Assembly: GCA_033439265.1 (NCBI GenBank)
Contig: JAVTVX010000027.1
Location: 2,743,001 to 2,807,000, forward strand
Length of the DNA stretch: 64,000 nt
From: Dillenia suffruticosa
Taxonomy: Eukaryota > Streptophyta > Magnoliopsida > Dilleniales > Dilleniaceae
Direction: 5' to 3'
The position numbers and the translations under genes are program-made. Under the pieces are notes generated by a model. The model saw only the letters and a program-made list of their open reading frames with translations. It was not told where the DNA came from and made no database searches. Shown here piece after piece: positions 23,733 to 63,345 of the stretch (position 1 is its first letter; every line of letters starts with the position of its first letter).

Positions 23733-23813
<81 letters not shown>
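23733..23813. repeat. Compound (GT)n(GA)n microsatellite
   Basis: About 16 GT units run directly into about 24 GA units. The open frames on both strands across it are artefacts of the repeat. Confidence 0.95.
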
Positions 23814-23814
<1 letters not shown>

Positions 23815-23879
23815 ACATGAGTAGATCCATCGCTGCCAAAATAGAAGTGGAGTTCCACTTAGAAATGCAGACCTCATCT

Positions 23880-26255
23880 TAGCTTAAACATACACTGCAG
23901 AACATTCACTGGCATCTAGAACAACAGCTAAACTTGGGCAGCGCTTAAGTAGGTCCAAAGCATATCTTGAGAACATAACATGCAAAAAGAGAGGATAGTG
24001 AGAGTGCCATTACAGTTTCATAATATAGCACATTAACTATGCTTTTGCGAAACATGATCCACATTCAACAGGTAGTGCTCCAAAGACAAGATATGAGGTT
24101 AAACTAATTAAAAGATTAGTTTACTGCCCATATGAAGGTCTCAGATTTTGATTGAACAAAATGATTGCTTGCATAAAATGACTTGAAAGGCATGGATCAA
24201 CCCCAAGATATGCAACTCTTACCATAGATTTCTGCAAGGATGCAATTGGTAAGAAGTATAACACCATTCTTGCCTCTTTCCGGTAAAAGTTCCTCTATTG
24301 GGGTAAGAGCATACAGATAACAGGCCATATCTGCATGGCCAGTTCCAGAAGCCAGTAGAACGGGAAGTTCCTGAAATTCAGTTTGAATATTTACCAAATC
24401 CATTTTCTTTTCCAATAAGATCTTTGCAATTTTCATTGTTCCACCACGAGTAGCAATAGCTATAGGAGTGTAACCATCATTTTCTACTAGTTCCAAATAT
24501 CGTGGTTCCATCTACTTCAACAAGTCCTCCCACAATTTTTATATGTTCTGCTGCAACTGCAAAATGAAGGGCTGCCTTCCTTGTATGTGATATTACGGCA
24601 CTTACTGCATCTTCATCTGAATCAAGGAATGCTTTTGTGGCTTCCCAGTCACCTCTAGTGACAGCATTGTAAAGCTCCACATACGTTTTAAAGGCTGTCA
24701 TCTTTCACACTTGTATACCTTGAAATGTGAAAGAAGAGAGCATCGACAATGCAAAAGACAAGGAAACTACCATGGGTGCAGAAGGTGATGAAATAAACCC
24801 CCATGGTTGTAGATCTTTAAAACCTAACCGAATGAAGTACTAATAATATGATAAAATGGCTAGTACAAAACCACAAAAAAAAAAAAGCTAAGTCCAAAAC
24901 CATGTAAAGAAAAGAGCAGTCATGGGAATAATTTGGACCAATCTAGATATCCAATTGACTAGCAAGAGATCCTTGGAAACTCATTAGACATTACTTCTCA
25001 AATTGATGCTGAGAAAGCCCTTGAAGGAATTAACTTGAAAAAACATGCCTAATCAGAACCAGAAATTTGTGACTGTTAACATTCAACTAAGTTGCAAGTA
25101 TGAATGAACCATATGCCCATCCGAAATACATAAGTTACAACATTAAAGGACATTATACACGTGTCCTAAATTCAAGTTTGTGTGGTCATGTTTGAGTTTC
25201 AACCAGAATAAGTAGTGTAACACAACCAAGAATTGAATTGAATTACCTGGGTCATTTTTATTTTCTGCATAAATGAGTCAAAGACTAAGCAACGAAAATA
25301 AACATGATTATTAGCAAGGATATGCATTAAAACACCAAAAAATCAAAATCTGCTCGCTACATTAGGAATTATGATGCAAAATTGCCAAAACAACATGTGG
25401 GTATTCCAATTTCAGGTACTTCAAGCCCTTAAAGGCAATCAAAAACAGAAATAATAAAAGACCCAGATACTGAAAATGGTAAAATGCAAGAAAGATATCA
25501 ACTTACGAAGGGGGATTTCCTAATCTGCTCAAGTAGCTCAAACGAGTACCAGTGCAGAGCTGACTGAGCTGAATGCTGGTGAATATACACAAATTCCAAA
25601 TTCTAGATCACAGCTTCCAAAGCCTCAATTTCTCGTTCTGTTGCATTCATAAAAGTTAGACCAAATGAGTTCAGAATTAAGATCAAAACTAGTCACCCTA
25701 GGTGGCATCTTCATTCTTCATTGAGGTGCCACATCAATTAATATGAGTCTAATAAGAAAATTTGTGGTGTCTAGGATTGTTAATGTGGCACCTTAATAAG
25801 GGCCGCATGAGTGACTGCCCCCCTCCTTAAGTAGAGCAAAGCCTTGTTGGAAATCCCACTTGAAAACTATAATTTTTAATAAAAATTTCTTTATTTAAGG
25901 TAGCTGAGTTTTGTTACAGCAAAAGTACCTTCTTCTTTTTCCTATTTTCTTTTTTTTTTTTCCTTTTTTTTTCCTCCCTTCTTGCTACCCTTTCATTGAG
26001 GCCAAATGATCCCAAGCAGCTTTGGCCAAGTCAAGCTCCACAATTTGATCAAGTATATTTGGTGAACAAGAAATTTGGATTAGGTATAAAACCTTGGCAT
26101 CCTTCTTTTCCCATATTTTGAAGTTCTTGGCATTTTCTCGGTCTGGTCTCCTCATTTAGAACTTCCCATGAGCCTTCACCTTGAAGATAGTTTCTCATGC
26201 AGGCACTCCATATTACCTTGAAAAACATCACTGACAATGCCAATTTTTGGTTCAT
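23880..26255 (-). pseudogene. Truncated ankyrin/PGG-family gene copy
   Basis: Pieces of the gene at 47.4-51.5 kb occur here in the same order. At 26255-26049 there is a gag-like segment (CMRNYLQGEGSWEVLN, compare CLRNYLKGQDLWDVIQ). At 24701-24477 there is the first ankyrin repeat (ELYNAVTRGDWEATKAFLDS). At 24511-24197 there are later repeats (NDGYTPIAIATRGGTMKIAK, then LLTNCILAEIYGK). Near 23960-23880 there is YALDLLKRCPSLAV. The two ankyrin pieces lie in different frames around 24,500, and the Pro/Gln-rich part, later exons and PGG domain are missing. An open stretch at about 25660-25500 (SALHWYSFELLEQIRKSPF) is not recognised. Confidence 0.8.
25691..25816. mobile_element. MITE-like inverted repeat (126 bp)
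   Basis: The left end, AGTCACCCTAGGTGGC, and the complement of the right end, AGTCACTCATGCGGCC, are related. An inner inverted pair, GGTGCCACAT...ATGTGGCACC, is nearly perfect. Small and non-coding. No clear target duplication. Confidence 0.5.
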
Positions 26256-38639: not shown

Positions 38640-41400
38640 CCCTCTCTCTACCTTCCGTCGGAAGCTTTGGCATCCTTTCGAGAGAGAGAGGAACCATTGC
38701 TGGTGGCCTTCCAAATCATTGAGTCCTCCACTCCTTCATTCCTTGGGATTAAGATTCCTCTTTTCTCCTCTACTTTGTCTCTACTAATCCAATCCCTCAG
38801 ATCATGCTGCTTCCAATGGCCCTCATTATCGATGAAGTCGATAACTTTGAACTAGGGGTGGTTTCTCGGAAGAGAGGCGATGGCATGGTCAATAAGATAG
38901 CTTCTACTATTCATAATGCCCCTCCACATGCTAGAGCTTCTAGACTTATTCCTGCAATGTAGTAAGTTGCTCCTACTTAAATGCTTGGCCTCAGCACTTG
39001 GCACCAAAGAGAGTTGTCGCCTTTAACAAGCTGCCACCCCAATTTGGTAAGCATGGCCATATTACTCTTCGAATCCTTAATCCTAAACCTCCCTCCCTTT
39101 TGGATTTGCAGGCTGTCCCCCAATTTACCAAGTGGATTCTCTTTTCGCCTTCTCTACTCCCCCGAAGGAAATTTCAGTTCATTCGTCCAGCTTGTTGCAG
39201 ATGTCTTTCGGAAGCTATGCAATCTGCATATTGTACATGGGAATGACCGTGTTCACGGATTGAATAAGGACTTTTCTACCCACTGAACTTAGTACCTTAG
39301 CCTTCCAATCGTAGAGCTTGTTTTGAACTCTTTCTACTAAGTAATTAAAGTGATTTTTCCTGGCTCTTTTATGGATCATTAGGACTCCTAGATACCTACC
39401 AAGGTCCTCCGAGGGGGTGAATTTGCTTATGGTTGTAAGAGAGCTTTTGGTAGTCCAAGGAGTCTTGGGAGAATCAAATCCTTAACTTAGAGGGATTGAT
39501 CTCCGGGCCGTTTTCCTCTGAAAATTCTCTAAGACAATTAAGGATGGTACTTAGGTTTAGGTGCTCAGTCTCGGCAAATAAGAGCAGGTCATCTGCAAAG
39601 AAGAGATACGAGATCGGGGGGCTTCTCTTGCTAGGCTTGATGGGATTCAATCTTCTTTTTCTAACTTTTTCCTGAATCATGTGGGACAACCTCTCCGTAA
39701 CCAGCATGAACAAGTAGGGAAACGATAGGTCGCCTTGTCTTAGGCCTTGGCCACTCTTCATGGCTGAGAGGATTTCGCCATTCCAAATGAGGGACACTTC
39801 TCTGAATGTGATGGCAAACATGATAAGCTTAATCAAGGAGGGAGGCATATTAACGTTGACCAGCACCTTATCAAGGTACTCCCAGCTCACATTATTGGAA
39901 GCATTCCTTAAGTCCACCTTTAAATTCATACCTCGCTTTTCTATTAGGCTTGCAAAGCGATTGGATGCTTCTTGGGTTACAGCTATGTTGCTGGCGGTGC
40001 CTCTTCTCAGAAGGAAGCTGCTTTGGTGGGGCCCGATGATCTTTTGAAGAATAGGCCTTGGTCTATGGATTATGACCTTAGAGAGCACTTTATAAGAGGT
40101 GTTGAGTAAACTTATAAGTCTGAAGTCACTTACTCTTTTGGGGTTATCTCTTTTAGGGATTAGCACCGTGTAGGCGTTAGTTAATTCAAGGAAGAAAAAT
40201 CCATCTTTCAGCACAGCATTCACAAAGTTACAGGAGTCTTTACTAGCTGCCAATACTTCCAGTAAAAAATTGGCTGGAGACCATCAGGGCTAGGGGCTTT
40301 AAGACCAAACATAGAGAAAACAGTATGCCGGACTTCTTCTTCATTGATCAGACTGAATAAATTCTCGCGGTGAATAGATTCATCCTTCTGGATGATGTGG
40401 TGAAATCTAGAGCTAGGATGAACCACAGCCTTTCCCCTAAACATGTCCAAAAAATGACCTCTAACATGAATCTTCAGGCTTTCCGGTCGGTGCATCAATT
40501 TCCATCCACCATAAGAGCTGTGATTCTATTCTTCTATCTCCTAATCTCAGTTGTAATGTGGAAAAACTTGGTGTTTCTGTCCCCATTGATTAGCCAGTTT
40601 ATTCTTGATTTTTGTTGTAAAAAAATTTTCTCCTCTTCTGGCACTTTGTCATATTCATTTAAGAGCTCTCTCTCTAAATCTTGAAGAGCCACCAATTGAT
40701 TGTAATAATTGGAAGATTGGAGCCCTTCAGCCTTGCTTCAAGCTTTCTTTTCCTCCCGAAGATATTGACAAAGACCATCTTATTCCAAATCTTGAGCTCT
40801 TCAACAGTTTTCTTAATAGACTAAGGGAGGAAACCCTCACCGGTTGCCCAAACTCTTTAGAAAATTCCACTGAAGTCCAGGTGGGAAAGCCCAACAGCTT
40901 CACAACGGAAGGGTTTCTTATCAGGACTAGGAGGGACTGAAAGTCTTGTATAGAGGATGATTGGACGGTGGTTGCCATAGACGCAAGGGAGATTGATGAT
41001 ACGCATTTCAGGGATGGAAAGCTTGGCCTCAAGATTCCCTGGAACTCTATCAAGCTTACTTTGCAGAACAATTTTACCTTCTTGTTTCTAGTCCAAGTGA
41101 ACTTAAGGCCGAGGGAACTACAGTCAATTAGATTACAATCTTTCCCCCTATTTCTGAACTTCTCACCTTTCTTCCAGCCTCTAACATTTCTATTTGAAGT
41201 TTCATTATCTCCTGCATGATCATTGAAGTCACCCATTACAAACCAAGGGCCTGCATTCCTCGTGCTAACTGCTGCACATCATTCCAAAAGGCTAGCATAT
41301 GGTGTTCATGGGGGTGTACATAAACACGTGACCTAATACGTAGGGTTATACTAAATCTCTTCTCCTTCAACAATTCCCCCAGCAACCCTCTCAAATTTTC
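38640..41400 (-). mobile_element. L1-type LINE, 5'- and 3'-truncated, decayed
   Basis: On the minus strand the order is endonuclease, reverse transcriptase, C-terminal region. The endonuclease part shows LAFWNDVQQLARGMQ, a frame break, then MGDFNDHAGDNE (about 41380-40730). The RT part (40498-39474) has LIPKRDNPKRVSDFRLISL, GLRQGDLSFPYLF and the YLFFADDLLLFA catalytic block. The rest (39300-38640) shows KVLIQSVNTVIPMY, KSNMAMLTKLGWQL and VIDFIDNEGHWKQHDLRDWI in shifting frames. A first ORF (gag-like) and a poly(A) end are not seen. Stops and frame changes show that it is dead. Confidence 0.9.
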
Positions 41401-43520: not shown

Positions 43521-44564
43521 TCAGACGAGCCCTTCAATTAATCCAAACTTCAATAAGAATTTCTTTTGATTACAGTCAAGCATTTCACTCAAGCTACAGT
43601 CTATGTTCCTTTGATTCAGAAGTTTTTGCCTCAATTCTATTCTCTTTCTAAAAGCATGGCGAAAGAAGTCAGGATAATCAGCAACTTCATCGAGTTGTCT
43701 CCCCATTACTTCTACCAAGAATCTGATCCTTGGACCAAGAGAATTTTTTATGCTCTTGATGAGAACAGGAGGATAACCTGACACCAATGCTACAATCTGC
43801 CTATCTCCAAAACCCAACCTCTTCAAATATTCCAAATTGGGTCTCAGTATTTTCTCCGCGTCTCTGCATAATACCTCAGGAAAAGTTACTACCACTCGTT
43901 GCAGATCCAACTCGGTCAGGCCTAATGATTTAAGAAATTCTGAGGTAGGTCTTAGCCTTTTATCAACACTATAGCCCATAATGAATGGATTCTTTGCTAA
44001 AACTTTACCGATCATCCCATCTTTATTCAAGCCAAGACTGGCTAGGAACTCTACAATCTGTGCAAGCTTTGTTTCAATGCTATAACTGATGAGCCTTGGA
44101 TTGAGAAAGAACATCTTACCTAGTTGCTTTTCAGAAACGCCAAGTGACTCAAAGAAAGCAAGGAGGGGACAAAGCTTCTCTTCCACACTGTGTGAGAGTA
44201 TATGAGGAAATTTGGTTATAGTAGCAGCAACCTCACTGGGTCTTGTTCCGAGTGTACCAAGACACTGAACCATTGGAACAATCTTCTCATTTAACCCTAT
44301 GGCCAGAATTTTAGGGCACTTTGAAACAACTGAAGGAATTTTCCTCTCTTCAATGCCAATGCTTTTCAAGTAAGCCCAGTTTTCCGATGCCCTTTCTCTT
44401 TGAACCGTTTCCAAACGCTTGCATTTGGTGAACATTTCCTTGATGCTGTTGTCATCAAACCCTTTGTCCCTAAAGAACCACATAATGCCACTACCCCTTT
44501 GGCTGCTAATCTCCATTTTACCTGAGAAGATTTGCACAAACCTAAGCTCCATTATTTTTAACAT
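43521..44564 (-). CDS. MTERF6: mTERF-family organellar factor (MTERF6-like)
   Basis: One uninterrupted 347-codon coding exon. It carries tandem mTERF repeats of about 36 residues, each with the leucine/proline pattern: IPSVVSKCPKILAIGL, VAATITKFPHILSHSVEEKL, GKMFFLNPRLISYSIETKL, IGKVLAKNPFIMGYSVDKRL, LQRVVVTFPEVLCRDAEKIL and IVALVSGYPPVLIKSIKNSL. The C-terminus (EVMGRQLDEVADYPDFF, SLSEMLDCNQKKFLLKFGL) is characteristic of the MTERF6/PDE191 group, nucleic-acid-binding factors needed for organellar rRNA/tRNA expression. The coding region starts 8 bases after a TTGCAG acceptor, so the gene has a 5' leader exon. The first ATG was chosen, but the conserved region begins near MEISSQRGSGIMWF, so residues 1-16 are uncertain. 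It appears intact. Confidence 0.94.
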   Translation of the reverse strand: MLKIMELRFVQIFSGKMEISSQRGSGIMWFFRDKGFDDNSIKEMFTKCKRLETVQRERASENWAYLKSIGIEERKIPSVVSKCPKILAIGLNEKIVPMVQCLGTLGTRPSEVAATITKFPHILSHSVEEKLCPLLAFFESLGVSEKQLGKMFFLNPRLISYSIETKLAQIVEFLASLGLNKDGMIGKVLAKNPFIMGYSVDKRLRPTSEFLKSLGLTELDLQRVVVTFPEVLCRDAEKILRPNLEYLKRLGFGDRQIVALVSGYPPVLIKSIKNSLGPRIRFLVEVMGRQLDEVADYPDFFRHAFRKRIELRQKLLNQRNIDCSLSEMLDCNQKKFLLKFGLIEGLV

Positions 44565-45180
44565 AATTGCTGCAACTAAACGCGTTAAGTCTTATAAATT
44601 CCAAGCAACACACAAAAGAAACGAACTAATCATAGCTTGAGAGGAAGAAAATTAGGATACCAAGATTCAATTGAACGATGAAATGAACAATTAACATGAT
44701 TTCATGATGTGGGTAGATAGTATCCTGGGTCATTGATACCAGATCTTCTCACTTACTGTTCCAAATTTAACCTTAAACGAAAGTACGCCCTTTTTGCTGA
44801 ATGTTTGTGGCTAAGAATTGATGGCTAAAAAGCAAAAGGCGACATTGCAAAACCCTTCATTGAGCAATTCAAGAAACAACTTCGCGTACTATTATCAACA
44901 TTCAATTAGAAGCTTAAATGGGAAAATTTTCAATTAACTCAATTCTCAAGAGACTTCATGACCAAACCATGCACCTAAATTTTATGAAACAAAGTAAAAA
45001 ATCAAACACATGGTGGGTTCAGATAAGAGACGGAAGATTACCTTTATGATATTTCAGAGTTAAAACATCAGTTGAATTGGGGGTGTGAGAGAGAGAGAGA
45101 GGGAGAGAGAGAGTAATTCAAAACAGAGAGGTTTGGTTCTCTTCTCTCAATCTGACGGCCTCTGTTTCTTGCCTGGAGCT
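44565..45180 (-). other. MTERF6-like 5' leader exon and intron
   Basis: Reading the minus strand, a CT-rich leader (about 45180-45043) ends ATCATAAAG at a GTAATC donor. The intron runs to TTGCAG just before 44572. Inferred from splice signals only. Confidence 0.5.
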
Positions 45181-46639
45181 GGACCAGCCGGCATGGTGGA
45201 TTGTAGATAGGGTGCGTGTGTGTTCTCTCTCTCTCCTTCTCTCTCTCACTCCCTCCCCGACAGTAATTCTGCCTCCGGTTATCTCTTGTGCGGTTGCTCG
45301 TGCGATTCGCTTTCCTTGATTTTTTTTTTCACTAATTATTCAAACAAATTATTATTTTTTTAAACATGTAAAAAGAAGTGTTTGCTCCGAGGGGAAAATT
45401 GTAAAATTAGAAAAAAAAATTATAAGGCTTTCGAATTGAATTATTTATAAATCTTGTCCGAATTTGTAGAAATTATACTATAAATCTCAAACAAATATTA
45501 ATTTAATTTTATTTTTTCATAAAAATACTAAACAAACTCGCATTAACACTAATATTTTATTATGACTCTTAAATTTTTTTTTTTTACTTTATACAAGAAT
45601 TTATTTATTATAATTTAATTATTAATGTTGTCTCATTTATTATATAGCATCATATCAAAACTATTATTTAAGATTTATAATTATAAAAGTAAAAAACTAT
45701 CCGACAAAGAAAGAGATTTTGTCCGATATCCAAGTAACTTGTTATTCACAATTTAACCATTGTAGTTAAAATGAATTTTTACCTTCAATATCTTCCTGCA
45801 TAGGCCTTTTATACTTTTCAAATGTTTTTATCATTAAAGTGTCAATAATTTTTTTTTTTTACTTGAATTTGAATTTAGTGTTTGATCTTATTATTTGGCA
45901 ATTGATTAAATGTCTTAGTTTAGAGACGCATACACCTTGCTCTTGAATGTAAAAGACTATTAATAAGAATCGAGGAGTTGATGAGTTATAATTCAATTAA
46001 TATCTTTTTTCTTTTCGATAAAGGTTCGAACATCGTATATATCTAAATAAAAAAAAAAAGAAAGAAACACTGTTACATGAAGAGTCTCACTAATGGGGGG
46101 TTGTCGACAAGTATGTTTTCGAGTTTCCAGAATTTTCGTCTAATTTGCTTGAGATATTCACCGAAACCCAAGTGGGTATTGATGAGTTGCATTTTGAGTA
46201 TGGTCATGCTAAGGTTGCTACTGAGGTTTTTTAACATGAGAAATTAACATGTGTAAATTGATATTCACCGAAGTGGGTATTGGTGATTTGGTGGTGTTGT
46301 GAGGGATGGGGAGAAGCCGTTCGATGAAATGAGGGAGAAGGATTGAGCCCGATATTATTAGTTTTGTAATCGAGCCGACTATTCAAAATCTCAAACTCCA
46401 CTCGTTATAAAACCCATACATGTGAGATTGACTATGGTGAGTGTTTCGAATATCAAGCCCATTAACCACATCCACTATGTCCCGCGCCCCCTGGTTAAAG
46501 ATTTGAACCAATTATCCTGAGTTCTATCAAACCCTAGTTTTCAACTTCCCAATATTGAAACATCATTTGGGGTTCAATTAGTTTCAAGCTTTACAATCTC
46601 TCTTTCTCTCTCTCTCTAGAAATGTAGACATTTCCAGAT
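45181..46639. other. AT-rich intergenic; possible gene scrap
   Basis: Mostly AT-rich. At about 46107-46230 the plus strand encodes KYVFEFPEFSSNLLEIFTET followed by GIDELHFEYGHAKVATEVF before a stop. This is protein-like but unrecognised, perhaps a gene fragment. Confidence 0.35.
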
Positions 46640-47160
46640 GCTCATTTTTGCTTGCCAGAGAATCCAATTAGCTCCATGGACAAGTGTTGATAACCAGAAC
46701 TCTATGTATGCCGATGTTCTGGATCACACCCTTTATAATTTTCATTAAAATAGATGCAATCTATCTCTCTCTCTCCCTCCTCTTATATGGAATCCCCACT
46801 AAGACGATTTTCTCTGGTCTATTCCGAATAAGAATATAGCATTCCATGCTTGTAAATGCGTCAAGAAACAGTAGATATGGCTATTTTACATAATTGTTAT
46901 CCTGGACAGGTGTTTTTGGTATTATATCAATTAGTATCAAAGTCATATTCTGATTAATTTAGTTTGGGATTTGTAGTGGTCGATTTAAAGAAACTATTTT
47001 CTCAACGTAGTTTTTCCATACCTAATCAGCGAATCGAATTTGAGAATTTAATTAAAAACCCTAATAATACATTCTACTTAGCCAACTAACCGGTTTATTG
47101 TTACCCTGTTTGCTTGTTCTTTCACGGGCCTAGCGTTTTTAACAGGAAAAGATTAAACCG
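46640..47160 (+). pseudogene. PGG-domain relic, paralogous to 63.05-63.35 kb
   Basis: GATAACCAGAACTC (GDNQNS, the PGG core region) followed by ATCTGGATCACAC-like, TAGATGCAATCT, GAATCCC(C/T)ACTAAGACGATT and TTTGCTTGTTCTTTC segments parallels 63048-63345. It is heavily decayed, and lies tail-to-tail with the intact minus-strand ankyrin gene. Confidence 0.6.
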
Positions 47161-47423
47161 CGGCCATGCCATGCACCATTTGATTTGGCCAACACTGCCC
47201 GCCAACTGACAGAATAGCACCAATAGAAGAGAGAGAGAGAGAGAGAGAGAACAAGCCTCATTATGCACCAAAACAGCTTTTTATTAAAAAAAAAAAAAGG
47301 TTCTAAACAATTTGGTACATTGGCTGGAAATGTAACAATGAGCTTATTTTGTAACGCACTTCTCAATAAAATAATAATAAAAAATAATTCTTCTCAATAA
47401 AATAATAATAAAAAATTACATTG

Positions 47424-50400
47424 TTACCATGGCAATCTTTTTTTGTTGAAAATGCTAGGACCGTACGTGGAAAGAGCAATCTCAACGAGAAGAGGAAACT
47501 GCAACAGAGCGAAAAGGGTAATGGGAATGCTGCCAAGCAAAATAATTGGTATAATAATCCAATCTAGTCTTTCATGTAGCATCATGTAGAGTGTTGCACC
47601 AAAGGCTATCATCATGGTTGCAATAGAGACGAAAAGCGTAGACAAAGCAATAATCAATTTGTTGGGTAGAGATTTGAGAAAATCATCTTCTGCATAGCGG
47701 GTGGTGAGAATTCCTAAGAATATTAGTATGGATGTTGTAGAGGAGAAGAGAGAGATTGCAACTGAGATGATGAAAACCATGAATGGGGTGACAATGCCTG
47801 CTTCCTTTCCCAAGAACACAGGCAAGCCCGAGTTTTGGTCATTACCACCTGGAACTGTAAATGCTGCGGTAAACATGATAGTAGCAATGAGAGTAGCCAC
47901 AACCATACCAAATGTTGCTGTGTCTTTCATCCACTTCTCTCCTTCTTTAACCAAGTTCTCGTGTTGCACGGTAAACAAGTCTCTCGGTGTCCTTCCCTCG
48001 ATGTTTCTTGCTTCCTTGAACTTGGGCTCCACAATTTTTTCCACCTCCTACAATTGTATCATTGACCACATTTGATTATAGTTCTTTTATGACCGATATG
48101 AAGTATAAGAAAGATAAACTAGACTAATGAACAGTTGATCTAATGAAATATTATATTGCTTAATCAAGTTTTAGATTTAAAATTTAAAAATAAAAAAAAT
48201 TATATTATAAGAACTATCATATAAATAGGATTCTCACAAATGTTCGAATCGAAATAGTTGGAGTATGATTTTTGATATCTTGACGGATTAAAAAAAAAAA
48301 ATAGGAAAGATAGACAAAGCATGGGACGGCCTTTTCAATATATCTAAATATAAAGCAATCCTGGGATTTAGCTCCTTTGAAGCTAGGCTTGCCCGGAGCA
48401 TGTTATGAAAGCTCAGCCCTTCTAGGCCTGGGCCTAATTTTAGGTCAGACTAGGTTTGACTGCATCTGACCTTTTTTCCTGGTTATTGCTAAAGAAAAAC
48501 ATATGCAAAGCACAAAAAAATCGTTTCAACTTATTTTTGAACACTCAATGCAAAGTAAAAAATTGAAAACCTTAAACCATTGTAGCTCCCTTTGCATTTG
48601 TAAAGCACCACCCGACTTTCGACCTAGCTGAGAAGAGGGAGCTAGCATTGCGGCATGATGTAACATATTGTTACCAAATGCGTCTCTGTAGCCCACTATA
48701 ATATACTTCTTTGTGCCCATTTCGTACATAAGGTTGAAAATATTTTCCTGGCGTTGGAGCACTGCATAATTAAAGGGATATCTTCCATGCTCATCAAAGA
48801 ACCATATCAAATCAGGATAAGACTTAAACACCTCAATGACAAACTCAATCAGCCCATATTCAACAGCACGGAACAATGCCTGTGATATCCCACTCTTCGA
48901 AAACTCTGACCAGTCCAAAACGGATATCTCTTTACAAAGTTTATTTAGCAATTCAAGAGCTTGAGCATGTATCAGCTTTCGCTCTTCTATATGTTTAACA
49001 CCTGGAACTATGATGACCAGAAACACAATTAGGGCAAATTGGCTGAGTGGAAGGTATATACTCAAATTAAGAAAGAAGAATTAGGCGATCATATTTTGTC
49101 ATCATGCATACCCAAAATTTTTGTGATTCTCCAAAACTCTCCAAACAATTTGCCAAGTGCTGCATATGAAAATTTGGACAAACATGTTAACTTCCTCTAA
49201 CTTGTGTGTGTGTGTGAGTGAGAGAAAGAGAGAGAGAGAGAGAGCATACATTGGACTACAATGTTCCTATGATCGTCTTGACTTCCTCCTGGAATTTGGA
49301 TGTTGATTTGGAGATTGCTTTGAGCATAAGAAGATTGTATAGGTATACCTTCCATATTAAACATGGCTATGTTACTAATGTGTTGGACATCCCTTAGATA
49401 AGTATCAAAGAGAGGGACTATAATCGCTGTCTAGGGACAATTTTGTTCTTGGGGTACTCACAAGGATAGATAAATCTTTCCCAGAAAAGAAGGTGATCAC
49501 CACTGAAAAATGAAGTGGTTGTTCGAGCCAACACATACACACCAGAACGTTCCTCTGAGTCCCAACCAAAAGCCAAACGGGGGCATCGTTGAAGTAAATC
49601 CAATGCAACATCTGATACATGGTATTGCCAAACAGCACTAATAGTAGTTGGCATAATACTTTTCAAGAATTTTTATTGAGTCTAACTTTGAGGCCTAAGA
49701 TGTTCTTACCAAGAATATCAGCAGCAATGCAATTAGTTAGAAGAGTCGTACCATTCGTGTTGCCTTGCTCTGGGGTTAGGTCTTCTAGAGGAGTAAGAGA
49801 ATAAAGATAGCGGGTCATATTAGTATGCCCAGTTGCAGAAGATAATACAACCGGGATTTCATTGTACTTGGTTCTGATTCTAACCAAGTTCTTATTCTTT
49901 TTTGTCATTATTTCTGCAATTTGAGTTGTTCCACCTCGCGCAGCAATAGCAAGTGCTGTGTAGCCGTCAACCTCTTGTACTGCCAAGTCTTGTTCTGACA
50001 ACGATTTCACCAACTCTTCCACAATCTCCACGTGCCCTGCAGTTACTGCAAGGTGGAGCGGTGTTTTTCCCGGGTGTGAAATTTTCATTCCTACTAGGTG
50101 GGGATGCAGGTCAAGAACCTCTTTGGCAGTCTTCCAATCTCCACGATCCACAGCCTTGTGAAGCTTAACAAAATGAATGTTCATATTTTCCTGCATCCCT
50201 GCCAAGGGTTGCTGATTTAAGACAAGGACCAAGTAAAGTCTGCAGGGTCCTTGAACGGCGATCTTGAGTTCAAGGCATTTATTACTCATAAGCAACATGG
50301 GACAATATACAACTTTGTTTATTCTACGTTTTTGGAGTCATGGATATGAGCTATGAAGAATTTGCTGCCAAGATTGGGATATAAACAGGTGAAGTTATAT

Positions 50401-51456
50401 TGTGCACCTGTGAAAATCTAGAAGTAGACAAATACCTGGCTGAACAGCCGAGCTAGCTTGTCCTTGAGGTTGTGGACCTTGCAGTACTTGTTGTCCCTGT
50501 GGCTGTGGCTGTAAGTGGTGCTCTTTTTGTGATTGCAGGTCCTGTGAATCTTGTGGTGGCTGGGGCTGTGACTGAGGTTGTACCTGCGCTTGCCCTTCTG
50601 ATTGAGGTCGAGGTTGTTGTATCTGAATTTCTTCTCGTGACTGAGGTTGTGGCTGTGACTTAGGTTGTACCGGCGCTTTTTCTTGCCACTCAGGTTCTGC
50701 TTGATCTTGTGGCGGTGCCTCCGACTGAGACTGAATCAGCACTTGTTCTTTTGTCCGAGGTTGCTCTTGCTGTGACTGAGGCTGTATCTGCATTTGTTCT
50801 TGTGACTGAGGTTGTGGCCGTGACTTAGGTTGTACCTGCGCCTGTTCTTGTGACTGAGGCTGCATCTGCATCTGTTCTTTTGTCTGAGGTTGTGATTCCT
50901 GTGACTGAGGCTGCGTCTGCTTTTGTTCTTGTGACTGAAGTCGTGGTTGTAACTTCGGCTGAGGTTCTGGTAGTTGTTTCTGTGCATCTGACTGAGACTG
51001 TATCTGCACTTGTTCTTGTGACTGAGGTCTTGGTTGCAGGGTCTGTGGCTGTGGCTGTGGCAGCTCCGACTGAGGCTGTATTTGCGCTTGTTTTTGAGAT
51101 TGTGCACCTTGTGACTGAGGTTGTAGCTGTTGTTGGGGCTGTAGCTGTGGTTGCTGCCCACAAGTCTGTTCCAGGAAACCCCACGCAGCTCTGGCAGAGT
51201 CATTGCTGATAATCCGAGCAAGTATATCCGATGAACATGTCATTTGAATAGCGTGTAAAGCCATAGCATTTTTCTTTTGCCAAGTCTTGAAATACCCTTC
51301 GTCTTCTCCTGGTTTAGACTCCGCTGTGCCTTGAATGACATCCCAAAGATCTTGACCCTTTAGATAGTTTCTGAGGCATCTGCTCCATGTCATGTAGTTG
51401 TCCCCTTTTAGAGGTTCCGGAACTATTGCATACCGCACTCCTTGATTTGTCTGCAT
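47424..51456 (-). CDS. gag-like/PQ-repeat/ankyrin/PGG membrane protein
   Basis: Seven minus-strand exons: 51456-50436, 50198-49710, 49611-49458, 49374-49250, 49159-49112, 49001-48571 and 48047-47424. Phases agree throughout, giving 963 aa. Residues 1-110 resemble the copia-gag-derived DUF4219/UBN2 region (VPEPLKGDNYMTWSRCLRNY, ARAAWGFLEQTCG). About 110-335 is a Pro/Gln/Ser repeat. About 345-520 holds ankyrin repeats (GKTPLHLAVTAGHVEIVEEL, DGYTALAIAARGGTTQIAEI). About 630-756 holds further repeats, ending QMQRELQWFK. The last exon is a PGG domain (FTVPGGNDQNSG) with four hydrophobic helices. Exons 2-7 are the ITN1/ACD6-like layout of plasma-membrane ankyrin proteins used in stress and defence signalling. 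The fused gag-like N-terminus is the unusual part. A transposon sits about 115 bp upstream of the start. Expression is not shown. Confidence 0.85.
50470..51120 (-). repeat. Coding minisatellite, Pro/Gln/Ser-rich
   Basis: Imperfect repeats with a QPQSQEQMQIQPQSQ-like theme inside exon 1 of the ankyrin gene. The other frames on both strands stay open across it, which is a side effect of the repeat rather than evidence of overlapping genes. Confidence 0.8.
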
Positions 51457-51986
51457 AATTGATCCCGAATCTTTGCTGCTCAGATGATGATAGTAGAAAA
51501 GCTAAGCTAAGATTAAGTGAGATGAGGAAGAGAGATGATAATCCCAGATCTGTCAGAAGGGTATAGTGTTTGGTTAATTACATGTTTGGTTCCAGAACTT
51601 TGTCAAAATTTACAAATTAGTTCTTATATTTAAAAATATCATATTACAGTGCTCAAAGTTTTAAAACCGTAACTTATTGATCCTTCCGTTATAAATGTGA
51701 TAGAGTATCTGTTAACTGATGACAATGACGTGAAATAAAATGACAATTTAGATGGAGGTATGGATACTGATGCTGACGTGGTAGTTATTTTTTGGGATTC
51801 TGGTCTTTACATTCTTCTCAATAAATTTATAACTTCTCTCAACTTTGTTGCTCCACCGTGCCTCTCTCTCTCTCCCAGTCCTCAGATCACCCGTTTTTTA
51901 AGATCAAAGATAGAAACAACAAATTAAAAAAAAAAAAAAGAACAGCGAAATAATTTGAATGGGCAATTTTTGAGACAGTGAAACAA

Positions 51987-51990
<4 letters not shown>

Positions 51991-52029
<39 letters not shown>
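51991..52029. repeat. (TA)~19 microsatellite
   Basis: A pure TA run just before the copia 5' LTR. Confidence 0.95.
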
Positions 52030-52032
<3 letters not shown>

Positions 52033-52034
52033 TT

Positions 52035-52499
52035 TGTTGGTTTACGAAGTGATCGCGTGGGGCATAAAGTAAAAATTTTGAATTTTTATTTAAGGGGATA
52101 ATGGGTGGTTAAACCCTATTATCACATTCAAACAAAACACTCCTAATTTCTCTCAAAGATTTCAACTCCAACACAACCTACAACCTACGTGATGGGAATG
52201 TAACTTCTTGATTGAAAGCAAGAATAACGGATTTTTCTTAGAGAGAAAAAGAGAGAAAATACACCGATTGAGGGAATTTTCGGATCATCGGACTAAAGAT
52301 TGAGACGTTGTGATTCTGTGGTGATAGTTTGTTATACGTGACTATCATCCCGACTACGAGTTGTTCCCTTTCAGAGTTTGCGGTTTTCGAGATCTTCTGC
52401 ATCACCGATTGAGATATATCGTGAACTTAATATTTTACGATTCCGAAAAAATTATTTATTATTGCTTCCGCTGCGTGACTGAGTCACCATAATCTAACA
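52035..52499 (+). repeat. Copia 5' LTR
   Basis: 465 bp, TGTTGG...TAACA, ending immediately before the primer-binding site. It pairs with 58683-59140. Confidence 0.95.
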
Positions 52500-55400
52500 T
52501 TGGTATCAGAGCCAAGGTTAGAAATTTTTTTTAATAATTTTTTTTTCAGAATTAAATTTGGGTATAAATATATAGGGTATAAAATTTGGGATTCGGATCA
52601 CGGATGAGTTTCGTAAATCCAATTATACCACTGTGTTACCTAACTCACGTAGAACACGAAAAAAATTTTTTCGTAATTTTCTGAGCACGATTAGACCAAG
52701 AAAATTCCGGTTGAAACATTCGGCCGTGAATAGTGACAAAACCCTTCAACCCCAGATTTGGCGAGTTTTTAGGTCAAATCAGAACATGAAAATGGTAGAT
52801 ATGTATTTGTCTCTGCTAGATCTATATTTTGATATATATATTGCATGTTGTTTATACCGGAATGTGAGGATTTCGGAGATGGGTTGAAAAAACCCAGTTG
52901 CAGACAAATTCGGGTGAAGATGAAGCCCAACAATGGGGCGCGTGCACAACATGCGCGCGGAGGTGCGTTTGTGCCTAGGGACGTAGCGCGTGTTCCTCAC
53001 GCTCGCGTAGGCGCGTAAGGTCAACCGGTCCAAACCGGGTCTGGACCAAACTGGGTCAGACCCGACCCGCTACCGGGATCTGGGTTCTGACCCGCGCCCG
53101 CGTCCGGATCCGACCCGGGGATGCGGACTGTGCTCGTGCAGGCACGTGCCTGACGCGCTGCTCGTCTTGCACGCGCCCAGGCACATCCCCGGCGCGTGAG
53201 AGCGCGTGGGACGCACCGCCGAGGGTCTGGTGGCGCGTGAACCCTCATGGCAGCACGTAGGTTGTCCAAAAATTGGATTTTTCTAATTTTTGGGGAATTT
53301 GTGATAAAAAGTGACTATTTGTGGGTCTTTTATAGACCGTATCCCAATTCGAATGGTGAGAGGCAATCCCGGATTGTGGTGTATGGTGTCCGTTGACTCA
53401 TACGCTCGTCTTGGGGTCTGTACTCGAGTCATTTTGGTTTTGGTGATTCGTAAGGTACATAAAATTGTAAATTTAAGTATCAATTGTTACTAATGTCTTT
53501 TTTCTGTGTAACAGAGACATGACTGCTACGAAAACTGTCGTTCTAGATCTCGTTAAGAGAGATAAGCTGAACGATGACAATTATGATATTTGGCACCGGA
53601 AAGTTCAGTTTGTCTTCGAGGAACAAGAACTCGGGAAAGTTCTTAATAACGAGATGGTGGATCCCGGGGAGGGTACCACGGCACAAGCACGATGGGATCA
53701 GGAGGTATATTGTGCTTGGAAAAATAAGGATAGCCAAGCGAGGGTGATCCTTCTTAGCTGCATGCACGATGAGCTGATTCAGATTTACGAGCAGTATCCT
53801 ACTGCACAGTCGATTTGGCATACTCTGAGAGAGCAATATGGTGCCCCGTCAGCTCCTAAGGCGAGGATGCTGACCTATAAATTCATCACTTACAAGAAGA
53901 TGCACGATCATACAATGAAACAGCATTTAATGCACATGTCGAGTATGATCGCCTCTCTGAAAAATATGGGGGAGCCAATGTCTAATGAGTTTCAGGTACT
54001 GGGTGTGATCCAGTCCTTGCCTAACTCCTGGGATGTGGTTAAGACCTATCTCACGCACACTGAGAGTATTCATACTTTCACGGACGTGAGTAGGCACTGT
54101 GAGCTCGAGGAAGAGCGTCAGGAGGTGGCAAGGTCTTCTTCTGCTCATGCTAATATTGCGGAGTCGAGTAAGGGCTCTCGGGGTTTAAAGCGTAAGTGGC
54201 GCAAGCATGAGAAGAAGGCCAAGGGCCAAGGCAAGAAGAAGCAACCTGCCAAGACCGACGACAAAGAACAGAAGCGCAAGAAGAAAGAGCTCGATAAGAG
54301 CAAAGTCCAATGCTATGTTTGTGGCAAGCTTGGACATTTCGCACTTGAGTATGGTGAGCGAATGATATGTCCTTTTTCTTTACATGGTTTGAGTTACGTG
54401 TCATCTAGTGTGATACTCATTAACTCTTCTCTTTTGTGGATTGTAGACTCAGGAGCCACGGACCATGTAGCTCGGGACAGGAGCGCATACGTGGAGTTCC
54501 GCCTTTTAAGTCCTCAGGCGAGGAGGCTGTACGTGGGGAATTAAGCATTTGTAAAAGTGAAAGGGATTGACACTTGCAAGCTATTGCTACGAAGTGACCA
54601 AGTCTTATATCTTCATGATGTTCTGTATGCTCCTGAGATTAAGCAGAATCTAGTATCTGTCCGATCTTTGGATTTGCTAGGATATTCAGTATTGTTGGGA
54701 AACTCTAGAGTTTCCATTACTTATAGCAGTTCTTTAATTTGTTCCAGTTTGGTCCATGAGGGAGTTTATGTACTGGATATGATTTCATCTTATGAGATTA
54801 TTTTTCTACTACTATTGCTTTTGCATCAGATAGTGTAGTGGATGATGTGAATGTATAACATAATAGGCTTGGCCACATAGGGCAAGAGAGGATGACCCGG
54901 TTAGCTACCAGTGGCTTGTTGGGCCCGCTAACCAAGATGTAGTTGTCCGTATGTGAGTTTTGTCTTGTGGGCAAAGCCACTAGAAAACCATTTGGGAAAG
55001 CAATTAGAGCTGAGACTCAATTACAATTGGTCCATTCCGACATTTGCGAACCCATGAATGTGAGATCCCGAAACGGAGCCACGTATTTTATTACGTTTAT
55101 AGACGATTACACGCGTTTCAGTTACGTTTACCTGATTTCGCACAAGTCTGAGGCACTAAAATACTTTACGAGGTTTATCAGTGAGGTTGAAAATCAGCTA
55201 CACTTAAGAGTCAAAACTCTCAAAACCGATCGGGGGCGTGAGTATCTGTCTGAACAATTAAAAGAGCTTTGTTCTGATAGAGGTATTACGAAACATTTAA
55301 CTATTTCTGCTACTCTTCAGCAGAACGGAGTAGCCTAGAAAAGGAATAGGACTCTGTTGGAGATGGTGAGGTCGATGATGGCACAGGCCAACTTACCTAT

Positions 55401-58400
55401 CTCTTATTGGGGGGATGCGTTGTTGACTGCGGCCTATGTCCTTAACCGCGTTCTGACAAAGTCTGTAGTCAGCACCCCATACGAGCTTTGGACAGGGAGA
55501 TAGCCTGATTTTAGCCACTTCAGACCATAGGGTTGCGCTACGTATGTTCGTGATTCCTCGCACCAGTACGGCAAGTTAGGCTCGCGAGGAAAGAATTGTA
55601 TCTTTATTAGATATTTTGAACAATCCAAAGGATATGTGTTCCTAAGAAAACATACGGACGGCACTGTCACTGAGATAAAATCTCGTGATATTACATTTCT
55701 CGAGAGTGATTTCCCTAAAAGAGGAGAAATCGATCAAAATCTTACCTTCTACGAGATGGATGAGCCTAGTGGCTCAGCCGAATCCAGTGACGGGACTCAA
55801 GAGCCGATTATGGATCTTGGTCTTAGTGGGATCAATCCATCTAAAGGTATGAGATCTCTCTCTCCTCGAAAGAGTAGTCGGGGACAAGTGCCACGTCGTT
55901 GTTTCCCGATTGAGGATAAGATCCTCATTGTGACTCCTGAGGACGATAAAGAGTCGAGGACTACACATGAGTCTCTCGAGGGTTCAGCAAAGGACCAATG
56001 GTTACAGGCCATGCACGAGGAAATGGAATCAATGAGAGTCAACGAAATCTGGGAGCTAGTTGACTTACCTGAGGAAAGAAAGGCCATTGGAAACAAGTGG
56101 GTTTTCAAAATTAAAAGAAAAGCCGACGGATTGATTAAGAGATACAATGCCAGTCTGGTAGCCAAGGGTTACACGCAAACTAAGGGCATTGACTACGAGA
56201 AAACTTTCTCCCCAGTAGTCAAATTTACTTCAATCTGTTTACTTTTGGCGATTGTCGCTAGTATGGATCTTGAGTTACACCAGATGGACGTTAAGACCGC
56301 TTTTCTTAACGGGAGCCTAGATGAAGAGATCTACATGGAACAGCCCCCTGGGTTTGTTTTGGTAGGTCAAGAGGACAAGATCTGTCGACTTCGGAAGTCG
56401 ATATACGGTCTAAAGCAATCATCTAGGCGGTGGTACCTAAGATTTCACAAGGAGGTGATATCTTACGGTTTTACAATGGTCGAAGAGGATCATTGTGTCT
56501 ATCTGATTCGATCCGATAACTCCTTTGTGATTCTGTCGTTGTATGTGGATGACATAATGTTGGCTGGGAACAACATTAAGTATTTAATGACCATCAAAGC
56601 ATGGTTGTCATCCAATTTCGACATAAAAGACATGGGTGAAGCTGAATTCATCCTCGGAGTTAAGATCAAGAGGGATCGCTCGAGAAAGATGTTGGCTCTT
56701 TCACAAGAGACCTACATTAAGAAAATTCTCGAGTGTTTTGAGATGAATGATTGTAATCCCATAGATACTCTGATCGCCAAAGGTGAAGGCCTGAGCTTGG
56801 ACATGTGTCCGAAATAGGAATAAGTAAGGGCAATGAGTAAAATACCTTACTCCAGTGCAGTAGGAAGTTTAATGTGCGTAATGTTGTGTACTAGACCGGA
56901 CATTTGTTATGCAGTTGTCTGGTGAGCAGATATCAGGCAAATCCTGGAAGGGGTCACTGGAGAGCGGTGAAAAGGATTTTCCGATATCTAAAAGGAACTG
57001 CAAACTTCTCCTTGAGTTACGGAGGAGGCGATTTGTGCCTTGTAGGCTATTCAGACGCCGACTGGAGAGGTGATTTGGATAAGCGCAAATCGACATTAGG
57101 TTTTGATTTCTTGCTCAATGGCGGGGCCATCTCTTGGAGCAGTAAGAAGCAAACATGTGTTGCTCTATTTACAATAAAGGCTGAGTTCGTGGCATGCTCA
57201 GTTGCAGCTCATGAGAGTGTTTGGCTCCGGAGACTACTAAATGACTTAGGAATTGTAGCGGATAGTGGGAGATCTGTAATGATTTATTGTGATAATCAGG
57301 CCGCTATCGCTTACACTCGAGATCCTAAGTTTCATAGTAGGACTAAACACATCGACACCAGATACCATTATGTTAGAGACATCATCGAGAAGGGTGAAGT
57401 GACCGTCAAGTACATTTCGACACACAGCATGGTGGCTGACCCCTTCACTAAACCCATCACTAAAGACTCTTTTTTAGGGCATAGAGAGTCATTGGGTTTG
57501 AATATTTACTGGCATTTCTCAGTTTGTACTTATTGATGACGTTGATGTTTATTGATTTTATATATATGATTATAGTGCATTATTCAGTCACTTTTGTATT
57601 ATATTTTTCATTTAATGCATTTACTTTTAATTATCATATATATGTTCTGTGATATAATAATAGATATGTCGGGCAAGCGAGGTCGACTATCTCACACGAG
57701 TGACCACCTCCAACTTTGAGTGAGCGAGGATGAAACGGTTTTTAGCTGTAAGAGGTTTTGAGAGTGGCCCTACTAGAACATAAGTCGCCCTGATACGTGT
57801 TCAAGATGAGGTCATATGTGATATGAACGACATGGAAGTACCCACATCCATGTTGCCTGTGAGTAGCCAGGTTTGAGATCTCGGATATCACTTGTTATTT
57901 GTGATATTGTCTCTTAGGTACTCTTTTTAAGATTTCTGGATAAAGTTTTATGTGTGAACTGCGTCCCCATACCTGCACAGTGTTAGAGAAATCTGACATA
58001 TGTCCCTTTGAGAGATGGGGGAATAACACTGTGGCACGTATTTCATATCACGTGTGAAAAGACGACTTGAGATAGTGAGAGCTATATTACTTGAGACAAT
58101 AACTTAAAATTTATCCCCAAACCCCACTGTGTGAGAGTCGAGATCCATTGGGTGGGATCTCTTGTACTCTTATTACTTTCGACTGTCTCTTGAGATTATG
58201 ATTCAGTATTTGTTACTTTAGTCTGTTTACCAATGGTCCGGAAGATAAATTGAGATTTGAGGGACAGATTTAGGAAATCAGCTGAATTGAGATCGATAGA
58301 TTCGAGTTTGGAAAAATGAAAACCAATTGACATTGCATTATTATGTTGTATTCACCGACCGGTCTTTTATGTTCATCTATGTAGAGATTTGAACATAATA

Positions 58401-58682
58401 GTGGATACATAGTCGAATGATATTTGGAGATTACTTTTAGTGAGGAAAGTAGCTCGATAGATGTAATTAGTCTTGGATCTGGGGTACAACGAGCTTTCTT
58501 ATGATGCTAACGGTGACTACTCGATCATCCTAATAGGTGTGTCGAGAAGTCTTTGTTTGCAGGTGTACTCGCTAGTCGCACGACGTCCAATCTTGTATGA
58601 AAGTCCAGTAGGATGATATAGTAGATCGCATGAGTTGTGATCTCGTGATAGATGAAAAATACCCTCGTGTGTAAGTGGGAGA

Positions 58683-59140
58683 TGTTGGTTTATGAAGTGC
58701 CCACATGGGGCATAAAATAAAAATTTTGAATTTTTACTTAAGGGGATAATGGGTGGTTAAACCCCATTATCTCATTCAACCAAAACATTCCTAACTTCTT
58801 TCAAAGATTTCAACTGCAACACAACCTACGTGATGGGAATGTAACTTCTTGATTGAAAGCAAGAATAAGGGATTTTTTTTAGAGAGAAAAAGAGAGAAAA
58901 TACACCGATTGAGGGAATTTTCGGATCATCGGACTAAGGATTGAGACGCTGTGATTCTACGGTGATAGTTCGTTATACGTAGCTATCATCCCGACTACGA
59001 GTTGTTCCTTTTTAGAGTTTACGGTTTTCGAGATCTTTTGTATCACTGATTGAAATATACCGTGAACTTGATATTTTACGATTTCGAAAAAATTATTTAT
59101 TATTGTTTCCGCTGCGTAATTGAATCACTATAATCTAACA
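58683..59140 (+). repeat. Copia 3' LTR
   Basis: 458 bp, preceded by the purine tract AAGTGGGAGA. It differs from the 5' LTR at about 38 positions by eye, mostly transitions, plus a small length difference in a short internal repeat. The flanks GCATT and TCATT agree at four of five target-site bases. Confidence 0.95.
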
Positions 59141-59542
59141 TCATTACATTACATTAATTTGCATCATCATCATATGTTCAGAATCTTGATCATTTTTTTG
59201 TTACATAATAAACCCCAAAAAATTACAAAACGGAAGAAAAAAGGAACAGAATAATCCGGTGAAGTCATCCGCATCGTCACCCGCTACCCCAAGATTTCTA
59301 TACAAAAAACAAGCGCTGATAAATTTTTGAATATTTTTGTAAATCAGAAAACCCCAGCACCACCCCCCAAAAAGAGTTCTTCACTCTCTTCAACCAATTT
59401 GTTTTTTTTTACTCCAGATTATATACAATGTTTTCTTCGTTCTTGCCATTCTCTTTTGCTACCCACCACTCGTAATACAATTTATAAAAATGCGATGGGA
59501 AAAACCGAAATCCCTAGAAGGCCACCGATCCAAAATCCCACA

Positions 59543-59846
59543 TCACATAACAAGCTCCAAAACCCAATCCACATCAGGACCCGAAGAATTAACGTTAGGA
59601 GAAGGCTCAACCTTTCCAAGAGAGTTCTCCCTTCTCAGCTTATCAAACATCTTCGCCCGTAAATCCTTACCCGACTCGACCCGCTCCATAACAGGTTCTT
59701 CCTCGATCCCATTCTCCCCAAAATCCAGATGGCCAACTCCGTTCGGTTTCCCAGTTGGTGTAGATGGAAGACTACAAACCCATTTCTCAAAACCGACATC
59801 CTGGGAGACGTTCCAAACGGCCGACTTAACTGCAAATGCCTGATAG
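59543..59846 (-). pseudogene. Captured host-gene fragment inside the DNA transposon
   Basis: From a TCAG acceptor-like site at about 59847 the minus strand is open for some 100 codons to a TGA: AFAVKSAVWNVSQDVGFEKW, then VCSLPSTPTGKPNGVGHLDF, then SGKDLRAKMFDKLRRENSLG, ending VDWVLELVM. Codon use and composition look like a real terminal exon. I do not recognise the protein. Its position inside terminal inverted repeats suggests transduplication. Confidence 0.55.
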
Positions 59847-60385
59847 AACCCACCATCTCATCAGCTGATTTTTATTACAAGGAAGTTGGGTTTTTTTCCC
59901 GAGGGGTTGGTTTTGTGTTCAGCGGTGGTTTGGATTTACGATGAGGAGGAAAAGGTTAGGAGAGGTGGTATCCATGGTAAGGAAAAGGGAGGGAGAGAGA
60001 GAGAGGGAGAGACGGTGGAGCAATAAAGAATAGAGAGGTAACAAACTTATTCGGAAGATGGAAAGCCCAGAATCCCAAAACACAAACGACGTGGAACATC
60101 ATGTCAGCAATAAAATGGTTTGGCACTGCCACATCAGCTACATGCTGATGTGGCAACATGAGTTGCCTTTTGAAGTCGGCACGACAATAACACGTCAGGA
60201 TCCACATTTCCACCTAAGTTGTCACATTATTTCATGACAGCGCTTCACGGAAAATCTGTCATCGTCTATACGGAAGGACCAGTTTTAAGTTTGAGGACCA
60301 TAATGTAATATTTTTATCTACATAGACTAATTTATGAAATTCAAGTAAATTCAGAGGACTAACATGTAATTAACCCATCGCTGTT

Positions 60386-61020
60386 TGTTTGGTTCCCCCA
60401 AAGATAAAATGATTAAAAAATGACCTTGCAGTGACGTTTAGCAGACACAATTAGTATATTCCAAACAAATTAAATTAACTGTTGGAATGGTTAACCAGCT
60501 GTTGTTTCAACGCCAGTGAACTGGCCAAAAATAAATAAAAAAGAATCCAGTTGCAGTGGTTCACATCCTGCACCAGAAATTTTGAACCCCAGAAGATACA
60601 TTCACCAGGCAAAATCACCAAAGTCCTTCCCATGGCTATCTGTTTGAGAAAGCTTAATTTTATTTAATTATTTTATTAAAACTCAAAAGATTTTTTTTGT
60701 AGAAAACGAGAAATTTTTGTAAATAAAATTTGAAAATTTTATATTAAAAAATTAAATTATTACTCTAGAATAATATTTCATTGAAAAATTGCTCGACGTT
60801 CCCCCAAAAACGACCTCAAGACGATATTTCTGTAATAAATTAAATAGTTTAAATCACTAAAACGTGCAGTATTTTTTATTTCCCCCGCTTATATGAGCTG
60901 ATAAAGGACTCCCCAATAATCTCTCTCTCGGGCAGGCAACAACGGAAGAGTATTATTTAATTACATTTGTGATTCCAAAATTCAATCATCATGCTTGTAG
61001 TTTAATAGAATGTGCTTTAA
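60386..61020. other. Intergenic, no gene seen
   Basis: Short AT-rich spacer. No domain or repeat signature recognised. Confidence 0.5.
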
Positions 61021-61129
61021 CGTCCCTCAAGGACAGCTCAAGGACAGCTCAAGTGGTAAAATCTCCCCACTTTCATCATTCCTTTTCTAATTCGAACCTG
61101 CTTAGTTGTATCCACTTGTAAAAAAAATA
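61021..61129 (+). mobile_element. Short SINE with perfect 12-bp target duplication
   Basis: AATGTGCTTTAA stands at both 61009-61020 and 61130-61141. The 109-bp insert has an A-box-like AGCTCAAGTGGTAA, a B-box-like AATTCGAACCTG, and an A-rich tail. Near its head CAAGGACAGCT is tandemly doubled. This is a tRNA-derived SINE, not a tRNA gene. Confidence 0.8.
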
Positions 61130-61389: not shown

Positions 61390-62340
61390 AGCAGCACCAA
61401 CATTTTCCATGCATGTCAAACATGCTACTCCAAAAGTGGAGACGAAAATCTCAACGAGGAGTGGGAATTGCAAAAGAGCAAAAAGGGTGACAGAAATACT
61501 AGCAAACAACATTGTAGGTAACAAAGCACAATGACAATGTAGTAGGTAAGGATCTGAGGAAGTCGGCTTCTGTTTAGCGTGATGTGAGAATTCCTTGGAA
61601 CATTTGTACACATGTTAAGAGAATAGAGATGATGCATCTCATCCGACATTATGAAAACCATACGGTGGTCCGTACGAGTTTGACAGTTGGTTCCGTTAGG
61701 AATGGTAATGGCTGCAGCAAACATGATAGGAGCGATAAGAGCAGCCCCAACAGTTTAAGGTGTTGCAGTGTCTTGCATCCATTTCTCATCTGCTTTGGGT
61801 TTTGTGTGTTGTTCCGTGAACAAAACCGGGGGTGTTTTCCCTGCGGCATTCCCTTTCTCCTTGAACTTTGGCCGCACAATGCCCTATGCTTCCTACAAAT
61901 TAGAATCCAAAGAACAAGAGAGAGAGAGAGGATTTTTTTTTTTTTTAATTATGACATTAATACTAATACCTTATACCATTGGAGTCCTCTTTGCATTTGC
62001 AGGGCAGCCCCAGAAATTCCATCAAGCTGATTGTAAGCTGCAAGAATTGCGACTACATGCAATATGCTGTTTTCCTCTTTGTCAACATTAGTAGCTACAA
62101 ATGGCTTCTTAGTAGTCATTGTATACAATAGGCTCAAGACTTTGTCTTGGTGCCTAAGAGTTGCATGTTGTATTACACTACCACCATTAGGATTGTTGAG
62201 ATCCATGGCTTCAGCCTAGAATTTCCTGACCTTGATGACCAACCCAATAATACCATTTGAAGCAGCATCAGAAATGGCAGGAAGAAATTCGATTTGATTG
62301 AGCCGTTGAGGGTCCAAAACCAGCAACTCTAGGCATATGC
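61390..62340 (-). pseudogene. Ankyrin/PGG gene relic, minus strand
   Basis: About 62206-61975 encodes MDLNNPNGGSVIQHATLRHQ, ILHVVAILAAYNQLDGISG and AALQMQRGLQWYK, matching exon 6 of the 47.4-51.5 kb gene. About 61895-61430 carries PGG-exon pieces in changing frames, ending FALLQFPLLVEIFVSTFGVA. Other exons are absent, and frame breaks and stops show a dead copy. Confidence 0.8.
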
Positions 62341-62859: not shown

Positions 62860-63345
62860 TTTGTAGGGTCGAGAATATCGTAGAGCCAAAGTTCATAAAA
62901 TCAAGAGATAATGAAGGCAAAACACCAAGTGACTCATCCACCATGTAGCCTAAGAACTTGATTAAGGAAGGCGAGAAATGGATGAAAGACAAAAGTACGC
63001 ATGTGGCTGCTCTTATTGCCAGAACATTTAAGATTTCCAAGCGGTGATAACCAAAACTCATGTATGCCTGTGATCTGGATCACACATGTCCACCCCCTTT
63101 TGATATTCATTATAGTAGATGCAATCTCTCTCTCCTCTTCTACGGAATCCCTACTAAGACGATTTTCTCAAGTCACTTCCGAACAAGATAATAGCATTCT
63201 GTGCAATGATCCATGCAAATGCTTCAAGAAACAATAGGTATGGTTGTTTTACCTTTTTTTTTTGCTGCTACCATTATTATTGCCCGATTTGCTTGTTCTT
63301 TCAATGCATAGGCCTAGCACTTTTTAACGAGAAAAGATTGAAAAG
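62860..63345 (+). pseudogene. PGG-domain relic, plus strand
   Basis: The plus strand reads VENIVEPKFIKSRDNEGKTP, a stop, NLIKEGEKWMKDKSTHVAAL, then GDNQNSCMPVI and AISLSSSTESLL, matching the last exon of the intact ankyrin gene. It faces the minus-strand relic at 61.4-62.3 kb head-on. Broken by stops and missing helices. Confidence 0.75.

Follow-up and report, generated by a model that had tools for sequence, protein, structure and literature searches.

The stretch of Dillenia suffruticosa DNA analyzed here (64,000 nucleotides, hereafter the window) carries a predicted ankyrin-PGG gene on its minus strand, from 51456 to 47424, whose model comprises seven exons and 2862 nt and encodes 953 amino acids with no internal stop. 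Exon 1 (50436..51456) opens with an ATG and holds, according to its translation and to Pfam, a copia-gag-like N-terminal segment at approximately residues 10-98, followed by a Gln/Pro-rich tract at residues 106-340. Exon 2 (49710..50198) encodes ankyrin repeats. Exons 3 (49462..49611), 4 (49250..49348) and 5 (49112..49159) were placed by reading frame and GT-AG borders, and exon 3 has a homologous piece at 23961-23785 in a decayed copy described below. Exon 6 (48571..49001) contains further ankyrin-like repeats, with weak Pfam matches below the curated cut-off, and exon 7 (47424..48047) encodes a PGG domain and hydrophobic segments and ends with the stop codon. All the introns are of the GT-AG type and the exons end in phases 1, 1, 1, 1, 1 and 0 over a continuous open frame, in agreement with the seven-exon gene of consistent phases previously proposed from the letters alone. 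This exon chain was picked among the open chains by its likeness to the ankyrin-PGG family. Since 1260 open GT-AG chains exist among the candidate sites supplied, exons 3-6 are not settled by frame alone. The ORF adjoining the gene (43524-44591, minus strand) gave a nearly full-length match to mTERF (3.2e-59, profile positions 3-314 of 314).

Exons 1, 2, 6 and 7 were scanned against Pfam, with the curated cut-offs as threshold. We observed matches above these cut-offs in exon 1 for DUF4219 (3.5e-8), Retrotran_gag_2 (1.1e-7, profile positions 3-72 of 172) and Retrotran_gag_3 (7.5e-6), which bears out the copia-gag-like, DUF4219-type N-terminus claimed by the sequence-only reading. The Retrotran_gag_2 match goes no further than position 72 of the 172, and a zinc knuckle (zf-CCHC) was absent from the Pfam matches of exon 1 at E values up to 1; the gag part is therefore an N-terminal fragment representing less than half of the profile. 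A structure model of residues 1-108 was all helical, with low confidence (mean pLDDT of 60.7), and its structural matches were uninformative. The ankyrin and PGG part said to follow the gag part was likewise recovered, with Ank_2 in exon 2 (2.5e-18, above the curated cut-off) and PGG in exon 7 (3.7e-25, 88.4 bits compared to a cut-off of 24.1). At the C-terminus, six hydropathy windows merged into four stretches between residues 793 and 928 (residues 793-811, approximately 823-847, 877-902 and 910-928), so that several C-terminal transmembrane helices are predicted by hydropathy alone. In terms of layout, PGG lies C-terminal to the ankyrin repeats, as in the ACD6/ITN1-like family, and DUF4219, joined in frame to the repeats through a predicted splice, lies N-terminal to them, as in the ankyrin-DUF4219 class. 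Ankyrin-PGG membrane proteins form a family linked to stress and disease resistance.

The splice that would join the gag exon to the ankyrin exons (50436/50198) is a prediction made from the DNA. By splice-site weights, donor 50436 ranked first of the 52 GT sites in 51600-50200 and acceptor 50198 ranked eighth of the 34 AG sites in 50436-49900. All 1260 open chains use acceptor 50198 for exon 2, the candidate set offering 50436 alone as donor for exon 1, and 50198 or 50190 as acceptor for exon 2. An in-frame ORF (49663-50337) spans intron 1 sequence into exon 2, and ATG codons are found both where exon 2 begins and in the open frame that precedes it. Taken together, the mediocre acceptor and this in-frame ORF make an unfused transcript possible.

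The remainder of exon 1 (50437..51141, minus strand) is a degenerate repeat tract rich in Gln, Pro and Ser, as characterized by composition, repeat lags, Tandem Repeats Finder and a repeat search. It amounts to 235 residues, including 88 Q, 38 P and 23 S. The repeat search recovered a 129-nt unit four times in 50536-51096, at spacings of 165, 129 and 138, with the three other copies 60-78% identical to the reference copy; Tandem Repeats Finder marked just 50820-50945. The term PQ minisatellite, applied to this tract beforehand, is thus supported by four degenerate copies and is fair only if the word degenerate is added to it. Among the ungapped repeat pairs above the score threshold (best segment per lag), all 14 had lags divisible by three, which is consistent with the frame being kept in the tract, the pairs overlapping and hence not being independent. 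No third-position excess was observed among the mismatches between repeat copies (51, 43 and 49 of 270 per codon position, again from overlapping pairs). These values would fit a translated linker tolerant of changes in both length and sequence. The open frame of the tract was rejected as evidence of coding, because other minus-strand frames are also open over parts of it. Elsewhere in the window, a tandem-repeat stretch at 36103-36814 has several frames open on both strands, with no Pfam match in the one frame scanned.

Next to the gene lies a copia LTR element on the plus strand (52035-59141), with LTRs at approximately 52035-52500 and 58683-59141 (421 of 466 aligned columns identical), whose gag and RVT_2 ORFs are spread over several open pieces. 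The element and the gene are arranged head to head, with the 5' LTR beginning upstream of the gene at about 580 bases from its ATG, and the element may affect the promoter of the gene. We considered exon 1 as a piece of this element and rejected the idea: the element lies on the opposite strand and its gag ORF (53477-54544) is about 26% identical to exon 1, which is therefore not derived from that insertion. Exon 1 has Retrotran_gag_2 and DUF4219 profile matches in common with copia-type Gag proteins such as that of this element, but it differs from them in the short part of the Retrotran_gag_2 profile that it covers and in the lack of a zinc knuckle among its matches. Around exon 1 itself, no LTR-like pair was detected: within 45000-53000 there was no direct repeat family of at least 50 nt besides the Gln/Pro-rich tract, in a search that pairs with indels or below about 65% identity could escape. 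The LTR pair found in 51400-64000 flanks the separate plus-strand element. Exon 1 thus shows a partial gag match where a copia retrotransposon would have a complete gag with zinc knuckle, and within 45000-53000 it has no flanking LTR pair. A further reverse transcriptase fragment is present at 39477-40283 (minus strand, RVT_1 7.3e-27).

A decayed relative, announced at 24-26 kb with both the gag-like and the ankyrin parts, was confirmed on the minus strand. By tblastn, it consists of a frameshifted, gag-like exon 1 remnant (25982..26216), also seen by DNA alignment, and of ankyrin exon remnants with stops and frameshifts (23785..24683), so that from 26216 to 23785 the gag part comes before the ankyrin parts, with order and strand as in the intact gene. 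The DNA alignment of exon 1 with its remnant, covering approximately residues 23-92, scored 116, whereas none of 50 base-shuffled controls exceeded 32. Between the gag segments of the two copies, 26 of 67 third codon positions differed versus 35 of 133 other positions (one-sided p 0.051), a borderline excess at third positions. Since gag and ankyrin sequences occur in the decayed copy with matching order and strand, the fusion appears older than the split of the copies, provided that the gag part was inherited together with the ankyrin parts; under this assumption, the earlier claim that the fusion predates the duplication is supported by sequence. For the PGG exon, no significant tblastn match was obtained in the decayed relative (best at 23480-23433, E 0.28). 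The Gln/Pro-rich tract gave no tblastn match in 24-26 kb, and the DNA alignment of exon 1 stops at approximately residue 92. Within the window, the 235-residue tract is particular to the intact copy; it may have been lost from the decayed relative or may be of later origin. Near this relative, we also observed a match to the full model of the U2 spliceosomal RNA (22502-22690, plus strand, 66.4 bits for a gathering threshold of 46), which is a gene or a pseudogene, and an ORF with a PHD-finger match (20002-20808, minus strand, 2.7e-12).

Two other remnants were detected by tblastn toward the end of the window: ankyrin-PGG debris with stops, equivalent to exons 6-7 (61429..62338, minus strand), and a decayed exon 7 (PGG) fragment (62868..63193, plus strand). 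Assuming intact-gene spacing, the gag part belonging to the debris would lie at approximately 64479-64793, beyond the end of the window, and the gag search above 59 kb within the window returned chance-level matches alone (best E 18). The intact gene and the three remnants somewhat resemble the grapevine Rpv12 locus, for which the available excerpt of PMC10200900 describes three ACD6-like genes clustered in about 221 kb.

The association of DUF4219 with ankyrin repeats has been described in plants. According to the excerpt of a UniProt survey (PMC12062965), there are 362 ankyrin-DUF4219 proteins, all 362 from Streptophyta and with similar architectures, which its authors attribute to a likely single fusion event. 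Among the fusions in which that survey found a multicopy domain joined to a transposon or viral domain, the pair ranks in the top five, and DUF4219 is among the domains driving the N-terminal bias of the transposon part (PMC12062965). No function is given for the class in this excerpt. As in the present gene, these proteins (IPR036770 with IPR025314) combine an N-terminal gag-type DUF4219 with ankyrin repeats; in contrast, neither PGG nor a long Gln/Pro-rich tract is mentioned in the excerpt, a comparison made by description only. The gene is a further member of this published class, found in hundreds of plant proteins, and since such an architecture is already in print, the surprise that the sequence-only reading attached to it is not upheld. 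In the excerpts of the literature on the fusion, the ankyrin-PGG family, domesticated gag and ACD6 channels, the ankyrin-DUF4219 fusion is named only in PMC12062965. The ACD6/ITN1/LR14A family, likened here by domain layout, shares with our gene the ankyrin repeats and, C-terminal to them, a hydrophobic (PGG) region; our gene differs by the addition of the gag-derived exon 1 and the Gln/Pro-rich linker, as judged from domains. ACD6 has a role in defence and raises calcium influx upon expression in oocytes and human cells, and LR14A is a possible channel, according to the excerpts of PMC11387256 and PMC7878491.

Considering these results, the locus probably encodes an ankyrin-membrane protein of the ACD6/ITN1 type, with an N-terminal module of old gag origin that would serve binding or oligomerisation and is carried on a Gln/Pro-rich linker. 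An ancient capture in the plant lineage would have turned the N-terminal portion of a copia-type Gag into the first exon; the flexible linker after it is long in the present copy, and the exons would be spliced together into one fused protein. Its C-terminus would be seated in the membrane, where, as has been reported for ACD6, it may act as a cation channel or as the regulator of one. The gag segment, which retains under half of the Retrotran_gag_2 profile, could serve as a helical module for protein binding or oligomerisation on a long tether rather than as a capsid. Domestication of this segment is plausible because the pairing recurs in 362 Streptophyta proteins with one inferred fusion (excerpt of PMC12062965). 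A bolder version seems to us unlikely: here the gag lobe would act on an ankyrin cation channel as a functional module for sensing or clustering, and the Gln/Pro-rich tract, able to expand, would be a tether of variable length that sets gating or clustering.

Other explanations were weighed against this one. The gag exon and the Gln/Pro-rich tract might be translated without contributing anything, in a gene that works as an ordinary ankyrin-PGG protein. The tract free of codon-position constraint and the borderline constraint on the gag exon (p 0.051) are in line with such passengers, but the DUF4219 pairing has been kept, with similar architecture, in 362 plant proteins (excerpt of PMC12062965), and we hold this explanation to be a minority possibility, somewhat unlikely overall. 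The fusion would, instead, be a modelling artefact if exon 1 were an independent ORF of retroelement origin, with the ankyrin-PGG gene beginning at an ATG of its own within exon 2 or shortly upstream of it. The exon 1 donor, which ranks first of 52 and agrees in phase with exon 2, argues against such a division, as do the decayed copy, where ankyrin follows gag in unchanged order and strand, the absence of an LTR-like repeat pair in 45000-53000, and the known plant ankyrin-DUF4219 proteins, in which the transposon part tends to be N-terminal (excerpt of PMC12062965). Even with the ATG codons at the start of exon 2 and upstream of it in open frame, and with the weak acceptor at 50198, both of which speak for two units, we consider this division very unlikely.

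A role in pathogen perception was also envisaged, in which the gag-like domain would be a bait for pathogen effectors, as proposed for the extra domains of NLR immune receptors. DUF4219 and UBN2 occur among the extra domains of plant NLRs, and AT4G00980, an Arabidopsis protein with DUF4219 and UBN2_2, is given as an interactor of an effector group (excerpt of PMC4759884); NLR extra domains are also reported to include DUF4219 and, separately, ankyrin and PGG (excerpt of PMC11734081). However, some of the NLR cases may be transposon sequence annotated in error, and of the explanations considered here an integrated decoy appears the most improbable.

Returning to the ACD6/ITN1-like protein with a gag-derived module, a functional gag part would mean that a fragment of a retrotransposon coat protein has been turned into part of a plant membrane signalling protein. 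Should the module further act as a tethered sensor, a retroelement part would have come to regulate a channel of plant immunity or stress. To the published class, the locus contributes a copy with a long Gln/Pro-rich linker and a decayed sister that would date the fusion before the local duplication. At the other end of the window, an ORF at 3642-4130 (minus strand) showed a PDDEXK_6 match (1.1e-41).
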